NCBI GenBank assembly: GCA_009908735.1
Contig: JAAAOR010000111.1
Location: 1-10,544, forward strand
From: Spirochaetota bacterium
Lineage (GTDB): Bacteria > Spirochaetota > Spirochaetia > DSM-27196 > PWMO01
Length of the DNA stretch: 10,544 nt
Reading direction: 5' to 3'
The position numbers were made by a program, and so were the translations under genes. How positions within the stretch are numbered: the first letter of the stretch is position 1; each line of letters starts with the position of its first letter. The notes below the pieces were generated by a model. That model did no database searches. It saw nothing but the letters and a program-made list of their open reading frames with translations, and was not told where the DNA came from. This document shows, piece by piece, positions 243-8,959 of the stretch.

Positions 243-1694
243 TCATCTACGCCAGAAAAAGGGGGTGAACACGATGAGAACAGTGAACACCTCCAACCTC
301 CCGAGCATCATGACAAAACTCAGAAACCACTTTATGTAGTCCTGAAAAAAGGCATAGTTCTCGGCCGGGCCTACCAGCCCGAAGCCGGGCCCAATGTTTC
401 CGAGCGTTGCCAACGCCGTGGAGAAGCTGCTAAGCAGCCCGTACCCTCCGGTCGCTACTACAAATGTCGTCACGAGCAAGACCGCAACGTAGAGGAAAAC
501 GAAGCCGGAGATTGCGTAGACGACGTTCTTCCGCACCGTTTCGCCGTTGAGCTTCACGCCGAAGACGCCCCGCGGATGCAGCAGGTAGCGCATCTCGTTG
601 AAGCCTTGCTTGACGAGCGTTACCACGCGCACCACCTTGATGCCGCCGCCGGTCGAGCCGGAGCAGCCTCCGATGAACATGAGTAAGAAGAGCATCGCCT
701 GAGAGACCGCGGGCCACGCGGCAAAGTCGGCGGTGACGTAGCCCGTCGTCGTGAGAATGGAGGCGGCCTGGAACGCGCCGAAGCGGAGACTGATGCCGAA
801 GGTCTCGTACACGCCCGCACGATGCAACCCGACCGCGACGACGAGGGAGCCGACCGCGAAGATCAGAAGATAAGACTTGAGCTCCGTGTCGCGGAGGATT
901 CCCACGGCCCGACCGCTGAGAAGCTTGTAGTACATCACGAAGTTCACGCCGGCCATCACCATGAACGCGGTGATGACGACGTGAATGAACGGAGAGGCAT
1001 AGAATCCGACGCTGGTATTCCTCGGCGAAAAGCCGCCGGTAGCGAGGGTGCCGAATGTGTGCGTCATCGAATCAAAGAGATCCATCCCTCCGACGAGCAG
1101 AAGAATCGTTTGCGCCGCGGTCAGCCCGAAATAGGTTAGCCAGAGAATCTTTGCGGTCTCAGTGACCTTTGGGGTGATCTTATCGACCGTGGGACCGGGC
1201 GCCTCCGCCTTGAGAAGCTGGAGCCCGCCGATTCCCAGAATTGGAAAGATCGCCACGGTTAGCACGATGATTCCCATGCCGCCTAGCCAGTGGGTGAGCG
1301 AGCGCCAGAACAGCATCGAGCGTGGAAGTGATTCGATGTCGGTGAGAATCGAGGCTCCCGTCGTGGTGAATCCCGACATGGTCTCGAAGAACGCGTCCAC
1401 GAACTGGGGGATGGCACCGGAGGTGTACAGTGGTACCGCACCAAAGAGCGAAACCAGCACCCAGCTTGCTGAGACGAGGAAAAATCCGTCCCGTGTGGAG
1501 AGGTCGCGCTGCTCGCTCCTGGTCAGGATCAGAAAGCCGGAGGCGCCGACCGCGAGGACACCGATGGGAATGAGGAAATGTCGGATAAGCTCGTGCTCCC
1601 CGTAGTACCATGCGACCACGACGGGCGTAAGCATGAGGCCGGCTACGATGAGAAGCAAGAAGGCTATGACACGAAAAACCAGCTTCGGATTCAT
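243..1694 (-). CDS. trkH: TrkH/KtrB-family potassium uptake channel protein
   Basis: A 483-aa polytopic membrane protein of normal TrkH length. TrkH forms the K+-conducting pore in the inner membrane and is normally gated by a cytoplasmic TrkA/KtrA RCK protein. The four pore-loop repeats of the superfamily can be read in order: TTTGAS at 110-115, ATGGFS at 218-223, TTTGYV at 315-320 and LGNIGPG at 431-437. Each carries the conserved filter glycine. The loop GGCSGSTGGGIKVVR at 342-356 and the end RLEVF...TPFFWRR are also typical. The start ATG at 1694 is the only usable one, because the same frame has a stop 18 bases upstream. It lacks a clear Shine-Dalgarno sequence and sits directly after a 7-bp inverted repeat. 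No trkA is visible in the window. The NlpC/P60 gene follows 26 bases downstream, probably in the same operon. Confidence 0.95.
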   Translation of the reverse strand: MNPKLVFRVIAFLLLIVAGLMLTPVVVAWYYGEHELIRHFLIPIGVLAVGASGFLILTRSEQRDLSTRDGFFLVSASWVLVSLFGAVPLYTSGAIPQFVDAFFETMSGFTTTGASILTDIESLPRSMLFWRSLTHWLGGMGIIVLTVAIFPILGIGGLQLLKAEAPGPTVDKITPKVTETAKILWLTYFGLTAAQTILLLVGGMDLFDSMTHTFGTLATGGFSPRNTSVGFYASPFIHVVITAFMVMAGVNFVMYYKLLSGRAVGILRDTELKSYLLIFAVGSLVVAVGLHRAGVYETFGISLRFGAFQAASILTTTGYVTADFAAWPAVSQAMLFLLMFIGGCSGSTGGGIKVVRVVTLVKQGFNEMRYLLHPRGVFGVKLNGETVRKNVVYAISGFVFLYVAVLLVTTFVVATGGYGLLSSFSTALATLGNIGPGFGLVGPAENYAFFQDYIKWFLSFVMMLGRLEVFTVLIVFTPFFWRR

Positions 1695-1724
1695 GGCACG
1701 AGCGAGATGCTACACCATCGTGCC
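1695..1724 (-). repeat. Inverted repeat abutting the trkH start codon
   Basis: GGCACGA at 1695-1701 and TCGTGCC at 1718-1724 are perfect 7-bp inverted complements separated by 16 bases. The repeat ends at the base immediately before the trkH start codon. In the transcript it could fold into a hairpin occupying the place of a ribosome-binding site; in DNA it could be an operator. Either reading is inference. No Shine-Dalgarno sequence is otherwise apparent for trkH. Confidence 0.45.
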
Positions 1725-1798
1725 ACCCTTTGTCTGCATTTTTGGTTTGGTTGTCGCACGTGCTTGTACCCGGTGGGTCGCGTGAGTGGCCTGGAAAC

Positions 1799-1803
1799 GG
1801 AGG
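1799..1803 (+). promoter_or_regulatory. Ribosome-binding site of the fpg remnant
   Basis: GGAGG followed by further Gs lies nine bases before ATG 1813. A good ribosome-binding site in front of MPELPDVEVF shows that the remnant preserves a real translation start, not a chance motif. Confidence 0.7.
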
Positions 1804-1812
1804 GGGGCGATT

Positions 1813-1866
1813 ATGCCGGAATTACCCGATGTCGAAGTCTTTCGCCGCTACCTCGAGCGCAAGGTT
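1813..1866 (+). pseudogene. 5' fragment of a formamidopyrimidine-DNA glycosylase (Fpg/MutM-type) gene
   Basis: From ATG 1813 the frame reads MPELPDVEVFRRYLER, the hallmark N-terminus of the Fpg/Nei superfamily. After removal of Met, Pro1 is the catalytic nucleophile and Glu2 the proton donor. These base-excision-repair enzymes remove oxidised purines such as 8-oxoguanine and are normally about 270-290 aa. Here the resemblance stops after about 16-20 codons. None of the helix-two-turn-helix or zinc-finger regions follows; the DNA from about 1870 onward is the 3' end of the glycosyltransferase on the other strand. The frame stays open to 2349, but that downstream part is only antisense to the glycosyltransferase. 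The exact breakpoint cannot be fixed by eye; the end given is where similarity fades. A deletion, an insertion boundary or an assembly chimera could explain it. Confidence 0.75.
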
Positions 1867-3126
1867 GGCGGCGCCGAAGAAACTCTGAAGGAGACCCGTG
1901 AGCCGCTGTTCCAGCATCGCGAACGAGAAGAAGCGCCGGGCAATTTCAAAGTTGCGATCGGTCATCGCCTCGCGGGCCTCCTTGTCCAGGAGGAGTGCGC
2001 GTACGCGAGCCACCGCCTCCCGCGTGAGGAAGCCGTCTATTGCCACCGTCTCAAATCCTTTCGGCTCGATGTCGACGATGTAGACGCTGTATCGGTTCAC
2101 CAGCAACGGCTTTCGAAAGTATACGGCTTCGAGGAAGGCGTTGCCGAAGCCTTCGTAGAGGCTCGGGTAGGTGATGAGATCGGCATGGGGATAGACGTCC
2201 CACAGGGTGTAGAGCTTTCGGCCTTTGTCGTCGAACTTCCGGGTGTCGTGGAGCCTGTTCGCGAGCAAATGGATTTCGATGTCTTGCTGCGCGGCGGTGT
2301 CGAGCAGCCAGTCCTGATAGCCGGTGCCCTCGTCACCGGCCGAGTGTGAGACCAAGAGCTTCACATTCGGCAGGTCCAGCTGCTTCACCAGGTAGAGGGC
2401 CTGTTCGATTCCTTTCCGTGACACCACTCGCGTGGGCTGGAGAATGAGTATGTCGTCAGCGGAGAATCCGAAGCTTTCGCGGAAATCGCTGTTGAACTCG
2501 TCGAACTCGGTCCGAGGTGCATCGAAGTCGATGGCGTTGTAAATCATTGTCGAGGTTAGGCCGCGACGAGCCGCGAGCTCGCGCTGCATCATCGAGTTGA
2601 TAACCACGTGACGGACCGAGGGCAGGTCCGGAGGGAAAGCGGATTGGAGGATATCCTGGACAGCGTTCAGGAGAAACCGGGATCGCTCCCACCACATGTC
2701 ATGGTGGTGGGCGATCGTAGGTATCCCCGTCTCCGCGATGACTTCGGTCAACGCAATGCCAAGGGGGATATGCATCGGTATCGCGAGGGCATTCTGCGGC
2801 ACAAGCACGTCGATGTCGAAGCGCTCGAGAAAGTCATACAATCGGTCCTTGAGGTATTCCGCCGACGCCGCGATCGTGTTGGTAATCCGGCGGCTTCGCA
2901 CCTGTGTACCGAAAATCTGATTGTTGAGCGCGAGGTTCTCCTCGGTGTTGAAGAAGGCTTCCGGCACCAGCAGGCTGCGATCGGGCTCGGTGTCCAGCAC
3001 GCCCGCGAACCAGAAAGACTCGTGTCCAAGGCGCGTGAGGACGGCTGCCCATTTTCGGGCCTCGAGTGACACACCGTCGGTGCCGGCTAACCTCGTCGAT
3101 ACGAAACCGATGCGTTTCTTATCCAT
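1822..3126 (-). CDS. GT-B fold glycosyltransferase (GT4-like), with altered C-terminus
   Basis: A 434-aa cytoplasmic-type glycosyltransferase. The N-terminal Rossmann domain begins RIGFVSTRLAGTDGVSLEA (5-23), with the flexible Gly-rich turn typical of GT4 enzymes, and contains HHHDMWWERSRF at 140-151. The C-terminal domain has PTRVVSRKGIE (231-241) and the sugar-nucleotide motif YEGFGNAFLEA (324-334) with the two Glu of the E-x7-E signature at 325 and 333. The donor is probably a nucleotide sugar. A mannosylglucosylglycerate-synthase-like role is a loose possibility, not shown. The start ATG 3126 was chosen because the protein-like sequence begins there and it clears the upstream gene, whose stop is 28 bases away; upstream extensions would overlap that gene. 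The last ~15 residues (NLALEVAAKDFDIG) are read from the reverse of the fpg fragment, so the native C-terminus is probably lost or replaced. It is the second gene of the operon. Confidence 0.85.
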   Translation of the reverse strand: MDKKRIGFVSTRLAGTDGVSLEARKWAAVLTRLGHESFWFAGVLDTEPDRSLLVPEAFFNTEENLALNNQIFGTQVRSRRITNTIAASAEYLKDRLYDFLERFDIDVLVPQNALAIPMHIPLGIALTEVIAETGIPTIAHHHDMWWERSRFLLNAVQDILQSAFPPDLPSVRHVVINSMMQRELAARRGLTSTMIYNAIDFDAPRTEFDEFNSDFRESFGFSADDILILQPTRVVSRKGIEQALYLVKQLDLPNVKLLVSHSAGDEGTGYQDWLLDTAAQQDIEIHLLANRLHDTRKFDDKGRKLYTLWDVYPHADLITYPSLYEGFGNAFLEAVYFRKPLLVNRYSVYIVDIEPKGFETVAIDGFLTREAVARVRALLLDKEAREAMTDRNFEIARRFFSFAMLEQRLTGLLQSFFGAANLALEVAAKDFDIG

Positions 3127-3154
3127 TTCAAACTGACCTGACGTCACGCTATCA

Positions 3155-3937
3155 TCAATCGCCGGTACCGACCATGAGATGAACTGAGTCAACGATATCC
3201 TCTGCGGTTGTGATTGTCCCCAGGTCGCCGGCAATTGCTCCGGTGCTCCCGTCCGGACTCGAGTGCCCCACAGGCTCGAGAGCAACCGGCTCCCCGTCGC
3301 GGATGTCCGTCACGTCTATCTGAGCAACGTACACCAGAGCCGGCTGGCCGCTTCCCCATTCGCCTCCGGAGTAATTTTCCTCCGTCTCGGGGGCGTCGGC
3401 GGTGAAAAACTCGTTGAAGTCGGCCGAGTGATTGACCTCGAAATACACTACCAGTCTCTCATGCCCCCCGGGGAGCAGGGTAGCCATCTCGAAGTCCGCT
3501 TTGGGAGTAGCAGTCGTTACAGCATCCGGCATCGGATTCTCGCGCGTTGGTACGGGCAGCCCGTCGGCGTAGACTTCTCCTCTGCGATGCGACCACACCG
3601 GCAGGCTCTCGGGACGGCGGATGCTCTCGGTTCGCTTCGGGTCGGCTGGTGCGCCGCGCCAGCTCTGGGTAGCGATCCGATCGGTGACGAAGAGGGTCGT
3701 GAGGAACTCACCGGCCGGAGTCTCGCACCACGCAACCATCTGCGGCGCGTTGCTCACCCGAATGAGCGGCATGACGCGCAGCTTGTGGGTGAAGTGCTCA
3801 CCGGCCGTAACCAAGATCGATGCGGGCACGCCATCATTGACCGGGACTGTGTGTTCCCGGGGTTCGTGACCGCCACCTGCAAAGACGGGCGTGGTGAGCG
3901 CGATAATCACGCATACAACTGTGCATATCCGTTTCAT
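3155..3937 (-). CDS. Exported protein resembling the DUF2271 family
   Basis: A 260-aa protein with a clear Sec signal peptide: MKR, a hydrophobic stretch and cleavage after PVFA at residue 20. The mature part has two recognisable blocks. The first is APQMVAWCETPAGEFLTTLFVT (64-85), followed by RRPESLPVWSH (107-117). The second is VVYFEVNHSADFNEFF (163-178), followed by GSGQPALVYVAQID (195-208). The SLPVWSH, EVN-S-D-N and SGQPxLVY patterns recall periplasmic DUF2271-type proteins of unknown function. That assignment is from memory of the family, not a search. ATG 3937 is preceded by GGAGG with seven-base spacing, which decides the start. It is the first gene of an operon with the glycosyltransferase (28-base gap). 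A sigma70-type promoter with a palindromic operator shared with tetR lies upstream, so TetR repression is likely. No catalytic residues are recognised. Confidence 0.7.
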   Translation of the reverse strand: MKRICTVVCVIIALTTPVFAGGGHEPREHTVPVNDGVPASILVTAGEHFTHKLRVMPLIRVSNAPQMVAWCETPAGEFLTTLFVTDRIATQSWRGAPADPKRTESIRRPESLPVWSHRRGEVYADGLPVPTRENPMPDAVTTATPKADFEMATLLPGGHERLVVYFEVNHSADFNEFFTADAPETEENYSGGEWGSGQPALVYVAQIDVTDIRDGEPVALEPVGHSSPDGSTGAIAGDLGTITTAEDIVDSVHLMVGTGD

Positions 3938-3961
3938 CTGTAAGCCTCCGTGATATAAAAT

Positions 3962-3977
3962 GTAACTAATGGGTAAC
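3962..3977. promoter_or_regulatory. Second, weaker TetR operator-like site in front of the DUF2271-like gene
   Basis: GTAACTAATGGGTAAC has the same 16-bp length and the same end half-site (GTAAC) as the two better operators, with an altered left half (GTAAC for GTTAC) and centre. It lies 26 bases from the main operator, just downstream of the predicted transcription start. It could bind a second TetR dimer, but it is less symmetric than the others and may be fortuitous. Confidence 0.4.
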
Positions 3978-3985
3978 ATGATATT

Positions 3986-4014
3986 AAGTTACCAGATGGT
4001 GACAAATGTGTCAA
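3986..4014 (-). promoter_or_regulatory. Predicted sigma70-type promoter of the DUF2271-like/glycosyltransferase operon
   Basis: On the minus strand a perfect -35 box TTGACA (4014-4009) is followed after 17 bases by TAACTT (3991-3986), a weak -10. The same arrangement, with a closely matching spacer, is found before tetR. The predicted start near 3979 leaves a leader of about 40 nt that contains the GGAGG ribosome-binding site. Confidence 0.6.
3988..4003. promoter_or_regulatory. TetR operator in the DUF2271-like operon promoter
   Basis: GTTACCAGATGGTGAC is two bases away from the perfect palindrome GTTACCATATGGTAAC. It lies between -35 and -10 and overlaps the -10 box, a position where binding would block RNA polymerase. 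The tetR promoter has a matching site in nearly the same register (five versus four bases from the -35 box). Binding by the TetR protein encoded here is inferred from this pairing. Confidence 0.7.
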
Positions 4015-4042
4015 GCTAAACTTCACCGAAACTTATCGGCAA

Positions 4043-4672
4043 TCATGTCTGGGGTTTCAACAGCTCAGCCACCGCGTCCGCAAGCCGTTCCCATCCGGCC
4101 TCGGATCCGATGTCGACGCCGTTGAACTCGCTTACTGCTTCGCTGCGCAGGGTCAGGTAGAAGACCGCGCCCGTGATGATGGCGAGTAGCGCGTGCATGT
4201 CGAGGTCTCGTGCCTGATCCTGCGGCGTAAGCACCTCCCAATACTGGTCTGTGAGCTGCAGTCCCGTCTTCTCCCGTGATTCGGAGAACGCCTCGGTAAT
4301 TGCATTGTGATAACTGAGCTCCCAGATGAGAAGCTGCTTGGTGAGGTCGTCTTCCTTCACTGCGGCGTGAAGATCCTGGACGACACGGCGCACCACGTCG
4401 GAGAGTGGGGTCCCAGGTTCGATACGCCCCAGTGCCTGTGCCGCAGCTCGAGACTGCAGCGGATCCAGCTCATCTGCGACGGCACGGTAGAGACCCGACA
4501 GGTCGCCGAAGTAGCGATAAATGAGCACTTTGCTGACACCCGCACGCTCGGCAATCGCGTTCACTCCCAGGGCGGAGAACCCGTCGGTGCGAATGATCTC
4601 GATTGCGGAATCCACCAGCCGCTTCTCCGTGCGCTTCCTGTCTCGCTGCTTTCCGGTTCCCGGTTCGCTCAT
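4043..4672 (-). CDS. TetR/AcrR-family transcriptional regulator
   Basis: A 209-aa regulator of usual TetR length. The N-terminal DNA-binding domain is typical: RLVDSAIEIIRTDGFSALGVNAIAERAGVSKVLIYRYFGDLSGLYRAV. The recognition helix lies around VSKVLIYRYF. The rest is a divergent all-helical ligand-binding and dimerisation domain (roughly residues 65-209) that does not reveal the ligand. ATG 4672 was chosen because the conserved domain follows after about 15 residues and the promoter lies immediately upstream; earlier ATGs (4741, 4690) fall in or before the promoter. No Shine-Dalgarno sequence is seen, and the predicted transcription start is within a few bases of the ATG, so the mRNA may be leaderless. 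It probably represses itself and the DUF2271-like operon through matching palindromes, and may also affect the divergent MFS-cupin operon. Confidence 0.92.
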   Translation of the reverse strand: MSEPGTGKQRDRKRTEKRLVDSAIEIIRTDGFSALGVNAIAERAGVSKVLIYRYFGDLSGLYRAVADELDPLQSRAAAQALGRIEPGTPLSDVVRRVVQDLHAAVKEDDLTKQLLIWELSYHNAITEAFSESREKTGLQLTDQYWEVLTPQDQARDLDMHALLAIITGAVFYLTLRSEAVSEFNGVDIGSEAGWERLADAVAELLKPQT

Positions 4673-4680
4673 GTATCCGA

Positions 4681-4708
4681 GAGTTACCATATAGTAACTT
4701 TGTGTCAA
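4681..4708 (-). promoter_or_regulatory. Predicted tetR promoter
   Basis: On the minus strand TTGACA (4708-4703) is followed after 16 bases by TAACTC (4686-4681), a poor -10. The stretch matches the promoter of the DUF2271-like operon almost base for base around the -35 (GCTTGACACA in both). Transcription would begin near 4674, almost at ATG 4672. Confidence 0.55.
4683..4698. promoter_or_regulatory. TetR autoregulatory operator
   Basis: GTTACCATATAGTAAC is one base away from the perfect palindrome GTTACCATATGGTAAC. It occupies the -35/-10 spacer of the tetR promoter, as expected for autorepression. It also lies 22 bases upstream of the -35 box of the divergent promoter assigned to the MFS gene, so the same dimer might influence both directions. 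Confidence 0.75.
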
Positions 4709-4720
4709 GCCTCGCCCCTC

Positions 4721-4974: not shown

Positions 4975-6174
4975 ATGTCGGAAAATGAACCGTTTGCTCC
5001 GGCGGTGCCGTGGGTGCTGTTTCTCATCATGATGGTGTTTTTCGCCATCTTTCCCCGCCTTCTGCTCGCCCCGCTGCTGTTGCGGATATCATCAGGTCTG
5101 GGCATCGAATACGGACAAGCCTCCAGCTTCTTTCTCACTGCCGCATTCGGTTTTACGACCGGCCTGCTCACCTCCGGCTTTGCTGCGAAGGTTTTAACCC
5201 ACCGGTGGACCATCGTGGGCAGTGTGACTTTGACCGGAGTCTCGTTTCTCGTCCTCTCGACGGTGCAGACAGTAATGGGCTTTCACGTGGTGCTGTTCGT
5301 TGGGGCCCTCGGTAGCGGTCTCTATCCGGGATCGGGAGTCGCCTCCGTTGCCGGGCTCGTGCCCGACCGCCACCGGGGGAAAGCACTCGCCATGCACGAG
5401 GCGGGGCCGAACCTCGCGTTCATTCTTGCTCCGATACTTGCGGCTATAATCGCCCCGTTTTGGGGATGGCGAGGGGTGTTCGCGCTCACCGGCGCGTCGG
5501 CCCTCGTTGCGGCCGCGGTATTCGCAACGTTCGGACGGGGGCAACGGGAGCGTGGGCAGCCACCGCACTTCGAGAATATCAAGCTCTTCCTCTATAGTCG
5601 GGATTTCTGGATCATTGCCACTCTCTTCGCAGTTGTTGTCAGCACGGCTGTAGGTGTGTTTTCGATGCTGCCGACCTTCCTGGTCGTGGAGCACGGGCAT
5701 ACGGAGCGGTTTGTGAACACGCTCGTCGGCGTGTCGCGAATTGCCGGCTTTGCGGCGATCTTCACGGCCGGCGCTCTCTCAGACCGCTTTAGCTTTGGCG
5801 CAGTGGTAACGGTCATCATGAGCGTGACGGGGGCTATGACGATCCTGATCGGGCTGACGCATGGAACGGCGCTGCTCGTTGCCGTGTTTCTGCAGCCCCT
5901 TGTCGTGCAGGCCTTCTTTCCGGTGGCGATTCGGGCACTCACCGACGCAGCACCGGTCGCGGCTCGTAACCTTGCCGTTGCGCTTGCAATTCCCTTGGCA
6001 AATCTGATAGGTGCGGGTGTAGCCCCGCGGATATTCGGGGCCGTGGCGGCAGCAGGGCATTTCGAGGCAGGCTTCCTTGCCCTAGGAACGCTGACGGTGG
6101 CGAGCCTCGCGCTGTTGCCGCTTCGACGGGTAAAGCAGGTAACCACGGAACCACAGCCTGAGGAGGTAGTATGA
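4975..6174 (+). CDS. Major facilitator superfamily transporter
   Basis: A 399-aa polytopic inner-membrane protein with about twelve hydrophobic segments in two halves, separated by a polar loop at about 187-207. Family features include LVPDRHRGKALAMHEAGPN (128-146) between TM4 and TM5, followed by GWRGVF (164-169). The second half has the motif-A-like GALSDRF (266-272). Transport of a small solute by proton coupling or facilitated exchange is expected, but the substrate cannot be read from the sequence. ATG 4975 has AAAGGAAG at 4957-4964, a slightly long spacing of ten bases. The gene ends TGA 6172-6174 and shares ATGA with the cupin start, so the two are translationally coupled. It is divergent from tetR, the layout of many TetR-controlled exporters, but the best TetR operator sits over the tetR promoter. 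Confidence 0.9.
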   Translation: MSENEPFAPAVPWVLFLIMMVFFAIFPRLLLAPLLLRISSGLGIEYGQASSFFLTAAFGFTTGLLTSGFAAKVLTHRWTIVGSVTLTGVSFLVLSTVQTVMGFHVVLFVGALGSGLYPGSGVASVAGLVPDRHRGKALAMHEAGPNLAFILAPILAAIIAPFWGWRGVFALTGASALVAAAVFATFGRGQRERGQPPHFENIKLFLYSRDFWIIATLFAVVVSTAVGVFSMLPTFLVVEHGHTERFVNTLVGVSRIAGFAAIFTAGALSDRFSFGAVVTVIMSVTGAMTILIGLTHGTALLVAVFLQPLVVQAFFPVAIRALTDAAPVAARNLAVALAIPLANLIGAGVAPRIFGAVAAAGHFEAGFLALGTLTVASLALLPLRRVKQVTTEPQPEEVV

Positions 6175-6533
6175 GCGACGCATATATCAAGCAGGATGAG
6201 CCTTTTGTGGTACCCACCACAGACGGTAAGCACATCGAGGAGCACTTCGGCATACCCAGTACCAGCATGAAAGACGTCAGCGTAGCTCGGATGGTAGCCC
6301 CGCCCGGGTGGTCCGAACCCGCTCAGACTCCGGAGTTCGACGAGCTGACTCTGATGGTTCAGGGCCGCAAGCGAATCAAAGTTGGCGAGGACGAGGTCGA
6401 GCTTTCCGCCGGACAGTCTCTCCTGGTTCGAGCAGGAACACGGGTACAGTACTCCAACCCCTTCGATGAGCCTGCGGAATACTGGTCGGTCTGCCGTCCG
6501 GCATTCTCACCGGACCGAGTTCACCGGGAGTGA
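6171..6533 (+). CDS. Cupin-domain protein lacking the usual metal ligands
   Basis: A 120-aa single-domain cupin. The double-stranded beta-helix core is visible as PPGWSEPAQTPEFDELTLMV (44-63) followed by QGR, then VELSAGQSLLVRAGTRVQYSN (76-96), with the end YWSVCRPAFSPDRVHRE. In the usual motif 1 (G-x5-HxH-x3,4-E) the two His are replaced by Gln and Pro around 52-54 while a Glu (58) remains. In motif 2 (PxG-x2-H-x3-N) the His is also absent, although Asn96 is present. A metal-dependent oxygenase or isomerase is therefore unlikely; ligand binding or a metal-free role is more plausible. AGGAGGT at 6161-6167 lies inside the end of the MFS gene, and the genes overlap by four bases (ATGA). Linked function with the transporter, for example sensing or handling the same compound, is inferred from coupling. 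Confidence 0.85.
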   Translation: MSDAYIKQDEPFVVPTTDGKHIEEHFGIPSTSMKDVSVARMVAPPGWSEPAQTPEFDELTLMVQGRKRIKVGEDEVELSAGQSLLVRAGTRVQYSNPFDEPAEYWSVCRPAFSPDRVHRE

Positions 6534-6904: not shown

Positions 6905-8959
6905 GTGCGCGATCCCATTTACACGGTGCTCGACGCGATTCTGTTCGCCTCGGAGGGGCAGGAGCCCCTCGGCGGCGTTGACTTCCACGGGCTCGGAGAG
7001 ACTCCCGCAGGCCGTCGGCTCGCGTCCCTCGGTGCGCGCCTCGCCGGCCGATGCGACCGTGGAGCAGACCAAAGCCCTGCTGCCGCAGGAGACGGCAATG
7101 CTGCCCGTGGAAACGATGAGGTCGAGTCGTTTCTCGAAACTGCCGCGGAAAGAACCCTCGCGGAGCTCTCCAATCTTCAGGCGGTGGACTCCGCGTGGCG
7201 CTTGGTTCTCGAAGATGCTGCCGAAGCGGTTCGGACCGGCTACGCCACGAGGTGGGGAGAGGAGGCCCGTGCTCTACTGTGGGAGGTATTTTTTCCCGAG
7301 GGGGCGCGGCTTCTCGGTCGGACTGAGGCGGCGATCGCGGATCTTCGCGCCAGACGAGGCATCGAGATTCAGGAGCTCAATGACAGCCCGCTCTCCGACC
7401 CGGTTAGTGAGCTCCTCGTGACGTCGAACGTCCTCCTGACGGTCCCCCACACTCGCGAGGAGATTGATGCGCTTCCCCATGGCGACGATGAAAAACACGT
7501 CATTCGGCGTGCCTTCGAGGAGGAGCAGCGCTACTTCTACGATCATCCCATACATATTGGGACTCCGCCCGAAAACAACGAGGCAATCTACGGGTTGCGG
7601 GGACTCAATGATGCAGTCGCGTGGGAAAAGGAGCACCGCGGGGTCGAAGCACACGCACGTCTTACGGTCGTTCTCAGTCTGTCCGTGACGCACGACGGCC
7701 TCCACGAGGTAGGTCGCAAATATCTCGCCGAGGAGATACGACGAGCAGGTGCCTTGAAGCACCTCGACGTATACCTTTTTACTGAGGTGGACTGCCGCCG
7801 CATCGTTGAGGACGTGCTCGCGCCCCATCTCCCCGCCGGCTCGATTCAATCGGTGGTAGATGTGTTCGGCGTGGACGGCGAGTACGGCAGACACTACTCC
7901 TTTCTGAAAGCAACTGCGGCGTTCTGGCAGGTCTTTGTCGACCCGCGCATTCGCGCCACATTCAAGATAGATCTCGACCAGGTGTTCCCCCAGCGCGAGC
8001 TTTCCGAGCAAACCGGCGCGTCGGCCTTCGAGCACTTCATGACTCCGCTGTGGGGCTCAAGGGGAGTCGACTGTGATGGGAACGAAGTAGAGCTCGGGAT
8101 GATCGCCGGCGCGCTGGTAAATGAGAAGGATATCGGAAGCGGCGTCTACACGCCCGACGTGCCGTTCCCCGAGGAGATCCCGGCCGGGGAGGCTGCGGTA
8201 TTCTTCAACAAGCTGCCCATGGCGGTGAGTACTCGCGCGGAAATGATGACGCGCTACGAGGGTCCCGGCGGCGCCGACGCCCCGAACACTGATACCGGTA
8301 TCGACGGGCGCGCCCACTGCATAGAGCGCGTGCACGTAACCGGCGGCACGAACGGCATCCTCGTTGATCATCTCCGACGGTATCGTCCTTTCACGCCCTC
8401 CTTCATCGGACGTGCCGAAGACCAGGCGTACATCCTATCGGTTTTGTATGACGGGGAGCAGGCCCGCCTGCTGCGGTACGTGCACGAGCCGGGGCTCATC
8501 ATGCGGCATGATAAGGACGCTTTTGCCGGAGAGTCCATTGCCGCGGCCCGTACCGGTCGCTTCATCGGAGACCTCGCGAGGACGTACTACTTTACTCGCT
8601 ATGCGGGCATTCTGCCCTGGGGACTCGAGTGGACGAAGTCCCGAATCGATCCCTTCACAGGCTGCTTTGTCACGCGGCGCTGCTACGCCATAATCGTGCT
8701 GCGATTGGCGCTCCACGCCGCGCACCTTATTGCCGCGGGAGAGGACGAGGAAGCATCCCAAGTCCTGCGCCTCGCCGCGCGCAAACTCGGACCGCTGTTC
8801 GAGGATCCCGCAGGCGAGAGGGTCCGCCGACGTTACCTCTACGAGCGCTCGGCGTGGCACAGCTTCTACGACGCGCTGCGTCGTGCGGAGGCCGCCTCGA
8901 GCGATACCGTCGGGGCAGCCGAGAGCGTGGTAGCTCCTGCACATTTGGAACTCGGATGA
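6905..8959 (+). CDS. Large protein with GT-A glycosyltransferase-like motifs (family not recognised)
   Basis: A 684-aa soluble protein from GTG 6905 (GAGGAGG five bases before). Residues 1-170 are mostly helical and Ala/Glu/Arg rich, with a low-complexity stretch near 50-70. The central part resembles a GT-A fold: a strand at ARLTVVLSLS (251-260), then LDVYLFTEVD (287-296), then ATFKIDLDQVFPQ (351-363) where D356-L-D358 would be the metal/nucleotide-sugar DxD. Further on are HVTGGTNGI (477-485), the acidic pair in GRAEDQAYIL (502-511) and GLIMRHDKD (530-538), whose His535 could complete the metal site. A helical tail follows (590-660). From established GT-A features, these spaced elements suggest a nucleotide-sugar-dependent transferase; donor, acceptor and family are unknown. 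It has no signal peptide or membrane helix and converges on the LOG gene with a 25-base gap. A link with the GT4-like gene in this window is conceivable but not shown. Confidence 0.6.
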   Translation: MRDPIYTVLDAILFASEGQEPLGGVDFHGLGETPAGRRLASLGARLAGRCDRGADQSPAAAGDGNAARGNDEVESFLETAAERTLAELSNLQAVDSAWRLVLEDAAEAVRTGYATRWGEEARALLWEVFFPEGARLLGRTEAAIADLRARRGIEIQELNDSPLSDPVSELLVTSNVLLTVPHTREEIDALPHGDDEKHVIRRAFEEEQRYFYDHPIHIGTPPENNEAIYGLRGLNDAVAWEKEHRGVEAHARLTVVLSLSVTHDGLHEVGRKYLAEEIRRAGALKHLDVYLFTEVDCRRIVEDVLAPHLPAGSIQSVVDVFGVDGEYGRHYSFLKATAAFWQVFVDPRIRATFKIDLDQVFPQRELSEQTGASAFEHFMTPLWGSRGVDCDGNEVELGMIAGALVNEKDIGSGVYTPDVPFPEEIPAGEAAVFFNKLPMAVSTRAEMMTRYEGPGGADAPNTDTGIDGRAHCIERVHVTGGTNGILVDHLRRYRPFTPSFIGRAEDQAYILSVLYDGEQARLLRYVHEPGLIMRHDKDAFAGESIAAARTGRFIGDLARTYYFTRYAGILPWGLEWTKSRIDPFTGCFVTRRCYAIIVLRLALHAAHLIAAGEDEEASQVLRLAARKLGPLFEDPAGERVRRRYLYERSAWHSFYDALRRAEAASSDTVGAAESVVAPAHLELG

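Follow-up and report, generated by a model that had tools for sequence, protein, structure and literature searches.

A probable in-place deletion behind the joined fpg and glycosyltransferase genes of a Spirochaetota bacterium

A 10,544-nucleotide contig from a Spirochaetota bacterium (the window, meaning the whole stretch analysed) raises the question of how the start of an fpg gene came to run directly into the antisense of a glycosyltransferase gene. The left part of the locus contains trkH, encoding a potassium-transport protein (243-1694, minus strand; PF02386, 244.9 bits), which is the divergent neighbour of fpg. On the plus strand follow GGAGG, a likely ribosome-binding site evident on direct reading of the sequence (1799-1803), and the fpg remnant, comprising an ATG at 1813 and the first 20 codons (1813-1872). 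The conserved part of the GT4-type glycosyltransferase (GT) lies at 1870-3126 on the minus strand, and its whole open reading frame runs from 3126 to 1822, ending in 16 codons including the stop (1822-1869, minus strand) that are antisense to the fpg start. In the opposite direction, a 178-codon hybrid reading frame leads from the fpg start into the GT antisense (1813-2349, plus strand; listed with a GTG start at 1786). Beyond the GT, a reading frame at 3155-3979 that matches no Pfam family significantly is followed by a tetR gene. Farther along, an MFS transporter gene and a small cupin gene (4975-6533) overlap by 4 bases and likely form one operon, and a 684-codon reading frame (6905-8959) matches no Pfam model at E up to 10 and no NCBIfam model at E up to 0.01. 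For the joined genes, the reading favoured here, with a probability of about 0.8, is an in-place deletion of ~0.8 kb, which connected fpg at codon ~20 to the GT antisense, 12 codons before the GT stop.

In Fpg/MutM enzymes, the N-terminal Pro is catalytic and the Glu that follows it is functional, and the window encodes both within an N-terminal MPELP at 1813-1872. The ribosome-binding site and Fpg N-terminus reported in an earlier note, made from the sequence alone, are indeed present, and the MPELPDVE start of the window is shared by 11 of 11 Fpg orthologues compared within the lineage (10 full-length proteins and P0122). PF01149 matches residues 1-22 of the 178-residue translation (19.7 bits, E 0.0014), spanning 22 of 117 profile positions and scoring below the curated cut-off of 25.5, short of a complete Fpg N-terminal domain. 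This is the sole Pfam match of the hybrid reading frame up to E 10, which gives no sign of function. Searches of the window by tblastn with four lineage Fpg proteins gave one good match each (E 4.9e-9 to 1.4e-5), extending from 1813 to 1878 or 1902, with all other matches at E of at least 0.047; these searches, using protein queries rather than profiles, found neither the H2TH domain nor the zinc finger in the window. The full-length Fpg proteins of the group (n = 10, 260-276 residues, at least 57% identity to P0124) carry PF06831 and PF06827. In agreement with the earlier note, no further part of fpg was found in the window and the fpg start gives way to GT antisense, while the note's estimate of about 18 fpg codons is revised to 20. 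Residues 17-18 of the remnant are KV, the corresponding residues being HA in 7 of the 11 orthologues and EA, QA, TV or NA in the other four. P0124 differs from its closest intact orthologues by 16-20%, a level that two changes in 20 residues do not exceed, so the decay of the remnant gives no sign of its age.

The GT scores above the cut-offs of two GT4 families (PF00534, 45.7 bits, cut-off 26.4; PF13439, 30.8 bits, cut-off 28.5) and shares 95% identity with P0002 and P0003 across 97% of its length; no solved structure matches it at E ≤ 0.001. As had been proposed, its tail is derived from fpg-side DNA, consisting, after FFGA, of 15 residues followed by TAA (16 codons). A PEVARG tail is present in all nine of the GT cluster representatives nearest to the window protein (P0002-P0010, 80-96% identity) but is absent from the window, the last 12 residues of close relatives being replaced there by 15 different residues. 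Among the best 120 GT proteins listed, this new tail is unique to the window's own protein. The Glycos_transf_1 match stops at residue 391 of 434 in the window GT, and tails past the FFG point, counted from the alanine of SFFGA, vary from 0 to 39 residues among the best 120 GT proteins listed, suggesting that the GT with its changed tail probably still folds and works. As PEVARG is retained in these nine relatives, the change may nevertheless have a subtle effect on the enzyme.

Searching GTDB genomes for the GT yielded 79 loci, of which the best (L001, 90% protein identity) belongs to the metagenome-assembled genome Spirochaetes bacterium isolate GSL.Bin19. This locus is colinear with window 1870-4709 (82.3% nucleotide identity across 2850 columns; the 17 gaps add up to 23 bases, and none exceeds 2), and the alignment ends at 1870. 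Past the junction point, L001 has the last GT codons (SPEVARGSDLLP) and the stop, its GT ending in FFGASPEVARGSDLLP, and 23 bp after this stop an fpg gene in convergent orientation begins with its 3' half, encoding 140 residues before it runs off the contig. In alignments the fragment corresponds to the C-terminal half of Fpg proteins, and it scores 82.4 bits against NCBIfam Fpg models, under the cut-offs for full-length proteins. At the far end, colinearity stops near window 4709, and beyond tetR L001 contains what appears by eye to be an ankyrin-repeat-like gene (1-564 of L001), whereas the window contains the MFS-cupin pair. The left flank of the junction aligns to a different contig from this relative's genome (L105, 83.3% over 875 columns), which covers the trkH end and the gene adjoining it, and trkH residues 284-483 are 94.5-95% identical in this genome (G001). 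That both genes change at one point is compatible with any join, including a contig misjoin or the insertion of DNA that came from a different organism or from a distant place in the genome; yet the joined genes adjoin in L001 in the same orientation as in the window, and the two flanks are about equally diverged from a single relative genome, so that a joining of unrelated DNA is very unlikely.

The fpg-GT order in L001, together with the PEVARG end kept by the nine relatives and missing from the window, makes it likely on sequence comparison that the ancestral order was trkH, fpg and GT, with fpg divergent from trkH and convergent with GT. An intact trkH-fpg-GT sequence was not found, since G001 matches only with two fragments, one of trkH and one of fpg, both located at ends of contigs, and the trkH-fpg side of this order is visible only in the window itself. 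As judged by matches to the C-terminal fpg fragment of L001 (E ≤ 1e-3), fpg adjoins GT in one of the 79 GT loci, L001, and none of the 79 contains a trkH match (E ≤ 1e-3), so the ancestral order is supported for this lineage only; in many of the other 78 loci the flanks are short, and GT identity in these 78 is 33-63%. The GT protein P0009 and the Fpg protein P0134 each occur on two contigs, the longest of 33155 bases, from the same two sources, and this agreement in longest contig, contig number and sources suggests that their genes are adjacent in another genome. Starting from an ancestor with an intact fpg between trkH and GT, one deletion would have taken out codons ~21-264 of fpg together with the spacer and the final 12 codons of GT, with an expected loss of 735 + 23 + 39 = 797 bp if fpg encoded 264 residues and the spacer was as in L001. 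Applied to this gene order, a single deletion leaves an intact fpg start, antisense GT after it, and a GT tail read from antisense fpg. Because fpg and GT adjoin tail-to-tail in L001, the apparent tail-first fusion corresponds to what would remain after a loss of ~0.8 kb. Of the origins left open by the earlier note (deletion, insertion boundary or contig misjoin), L001 favours a deletion between convergent neighbours, and an insertion is not needed. A strange-looking hybrid would in this way be explained as one simple event.

Comparison with homologues, suggested earlier as a means of placing the breakpoint, confirms the junction first described and traces GT-derived sequence leftward to 1870 and fpg-derived sequence rightward to 1871-1877. 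The junction at 1870-1877 reads GGCGCCGA, an overlap of the fpg and GT sequences in which the GT side is defined by the L001 DNA match and the fpg side by protein alignment only; because the fpg-side limit varies with the wobble bases in the codons for Gly20 and Ala21, the two sequences overlap at the breakpoint by 2-8 bp, comprising all or part of GGCGCCGA. When 200,000 deletions of 600-1000 bp were placed at random in the window, an overlap of at least 2 bp occurred in 17%, and of at least 8 bp in 0.022%. The region 1600-3300 contains no direct repeats at a minimum length of 12, a length too great to show an 8-bp repeat, and four inverted repeat pairs, none at the junction. An alignment by eye involving a AAGGTTGGC stretch from the GT tail was dropped, because it needs substitutions and gaps together. 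The deletion may have arisen by slipped-strand replication or end joining, with GGCGCCGA or part of it acting as a short direct repeat. Template switching at such a short repeat could also have occurred in vitro, yielding a chimeric amplified molecule that was taken up by the assembler. An origin of this kind would agree with the occurrence of the GT tail in the window alone among the best 120 GT proteins listed, and with internal gaps in two sister proteins (P0010 and P0122, described below), as faults of assembly or library may recur within this group. A k-mer misjoin probably requires more than the overlap of 8 bp or less seen here, which would still be compatible with a library chimera; chimeric molecules, however, are seldom abundant enough to be assembled into a 10.5 kb contig. 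A junction made in vitro is therefore rather unlikely, and the short overlap, together with the joined genes being true neighbours, favours a real deletion.

Internal gaps of at least 8 core residues were surveyed in 243 proteins (120 GT and 123 Fpg); the protein searches retained proteins of 0.55-1.75 times the query length, with the best 120 listed. Besides the window, three of the 243 proteins contain such gaps (P0010, P0122 and P0128), of which P0010 and P0122 belong to the closest group. P0010, one of the best 120 GT proteins listed, has a gap of 53 core residues. Encoded on an 18844-base contig, this sister GT is 96% identical over 81% of the query, and by eye appears to have lost ~30 codons near its N-terminus, its start being read in another frame. 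P0122, one of the 123 Fpg proteins, has a gap of 23 core residues and is without the MNQ..AGIGN stretch, and P0128, an Fpg retrieved by an N-terminus-directed search, has large gaps and is without most of the N-terminal domain. The gaps may reflect either genuine losses or a common problem of assembly. That this Spirochaetota lineage is prone to short-repeat deletions and is losing fpg repeatedly is very unlikely, and unless more cases appear, the deletion is an ordinary kind of mutation.

PF01149 matches (E ≤ 0.001) occur in 33 of 61 genomes (G001 and 60 relatives), with two matches in 6 of these 33; since genome completeness is not given, absence within this set means little. For example, no PF01149 match is found in G001, G002 or G003, though a single 3' half of fpg lies at the end of a G001 contig. 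Intact close fpg DNA was not found among 392 sampled genomes of the phylum (match E ≤ 1e-30), the three matches at this threshold being the fragment of G001 and two at 37% and 33% identity. Viral contigs gave three pattern matches for a close fpg, none of them a relative. A literature search found no paper joining formamidopyrimidine, gene loss and Spirochaet; other studies reportedly deal with the loss of 8-oxoG repair in eukaryotes and with gene inactivation in endosymbionts. At the window locus, fpg is presumably null. Should the deletion be genuine and fpg have no second copy, a main 8-oxoguanine glycosylase would be missing from the strain, and more G-to-T changes would be expected. Two false annotations are to be avoided at this locus, one of a 178-residue 'Fpg-like' protein and the other of a new tail on the GT.

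In comparison with known systems, the GT resembles in sequence mannosylglucosylglycerate synthase (NF041101), to which its residues 5-410 align, and related GT4 proteins, with a PF00534 match above cut-off. The GT differs from the synthase in scoring 256 bits, far below the NF041101 cut-off of 640, and is therefore named only a GT4-type glycosyltransferase. Mannosylglucosylglycerate itself is among the main osmoadaptation solutes of Rhodopirellula baltica, according to a published study (PMC3694870). With Fpg/MutM (PF01149, PF06831, PF06827), the window shares the start codon, the ribosome-binding site and the first 20 residues, whereas the searches recovered from it neither the remaining part of the N-terminal domain nor the H2TH domain or zinc finger. 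Short direct repeats give rise to deletions by slipped replication or alternative end joining, and the locus resembles such deletions in its single junction, its lack of need for an insert and an overlap that, with the fpg side read from protein, would be 2-8 bp; a mechanism of this kind is proposed here.
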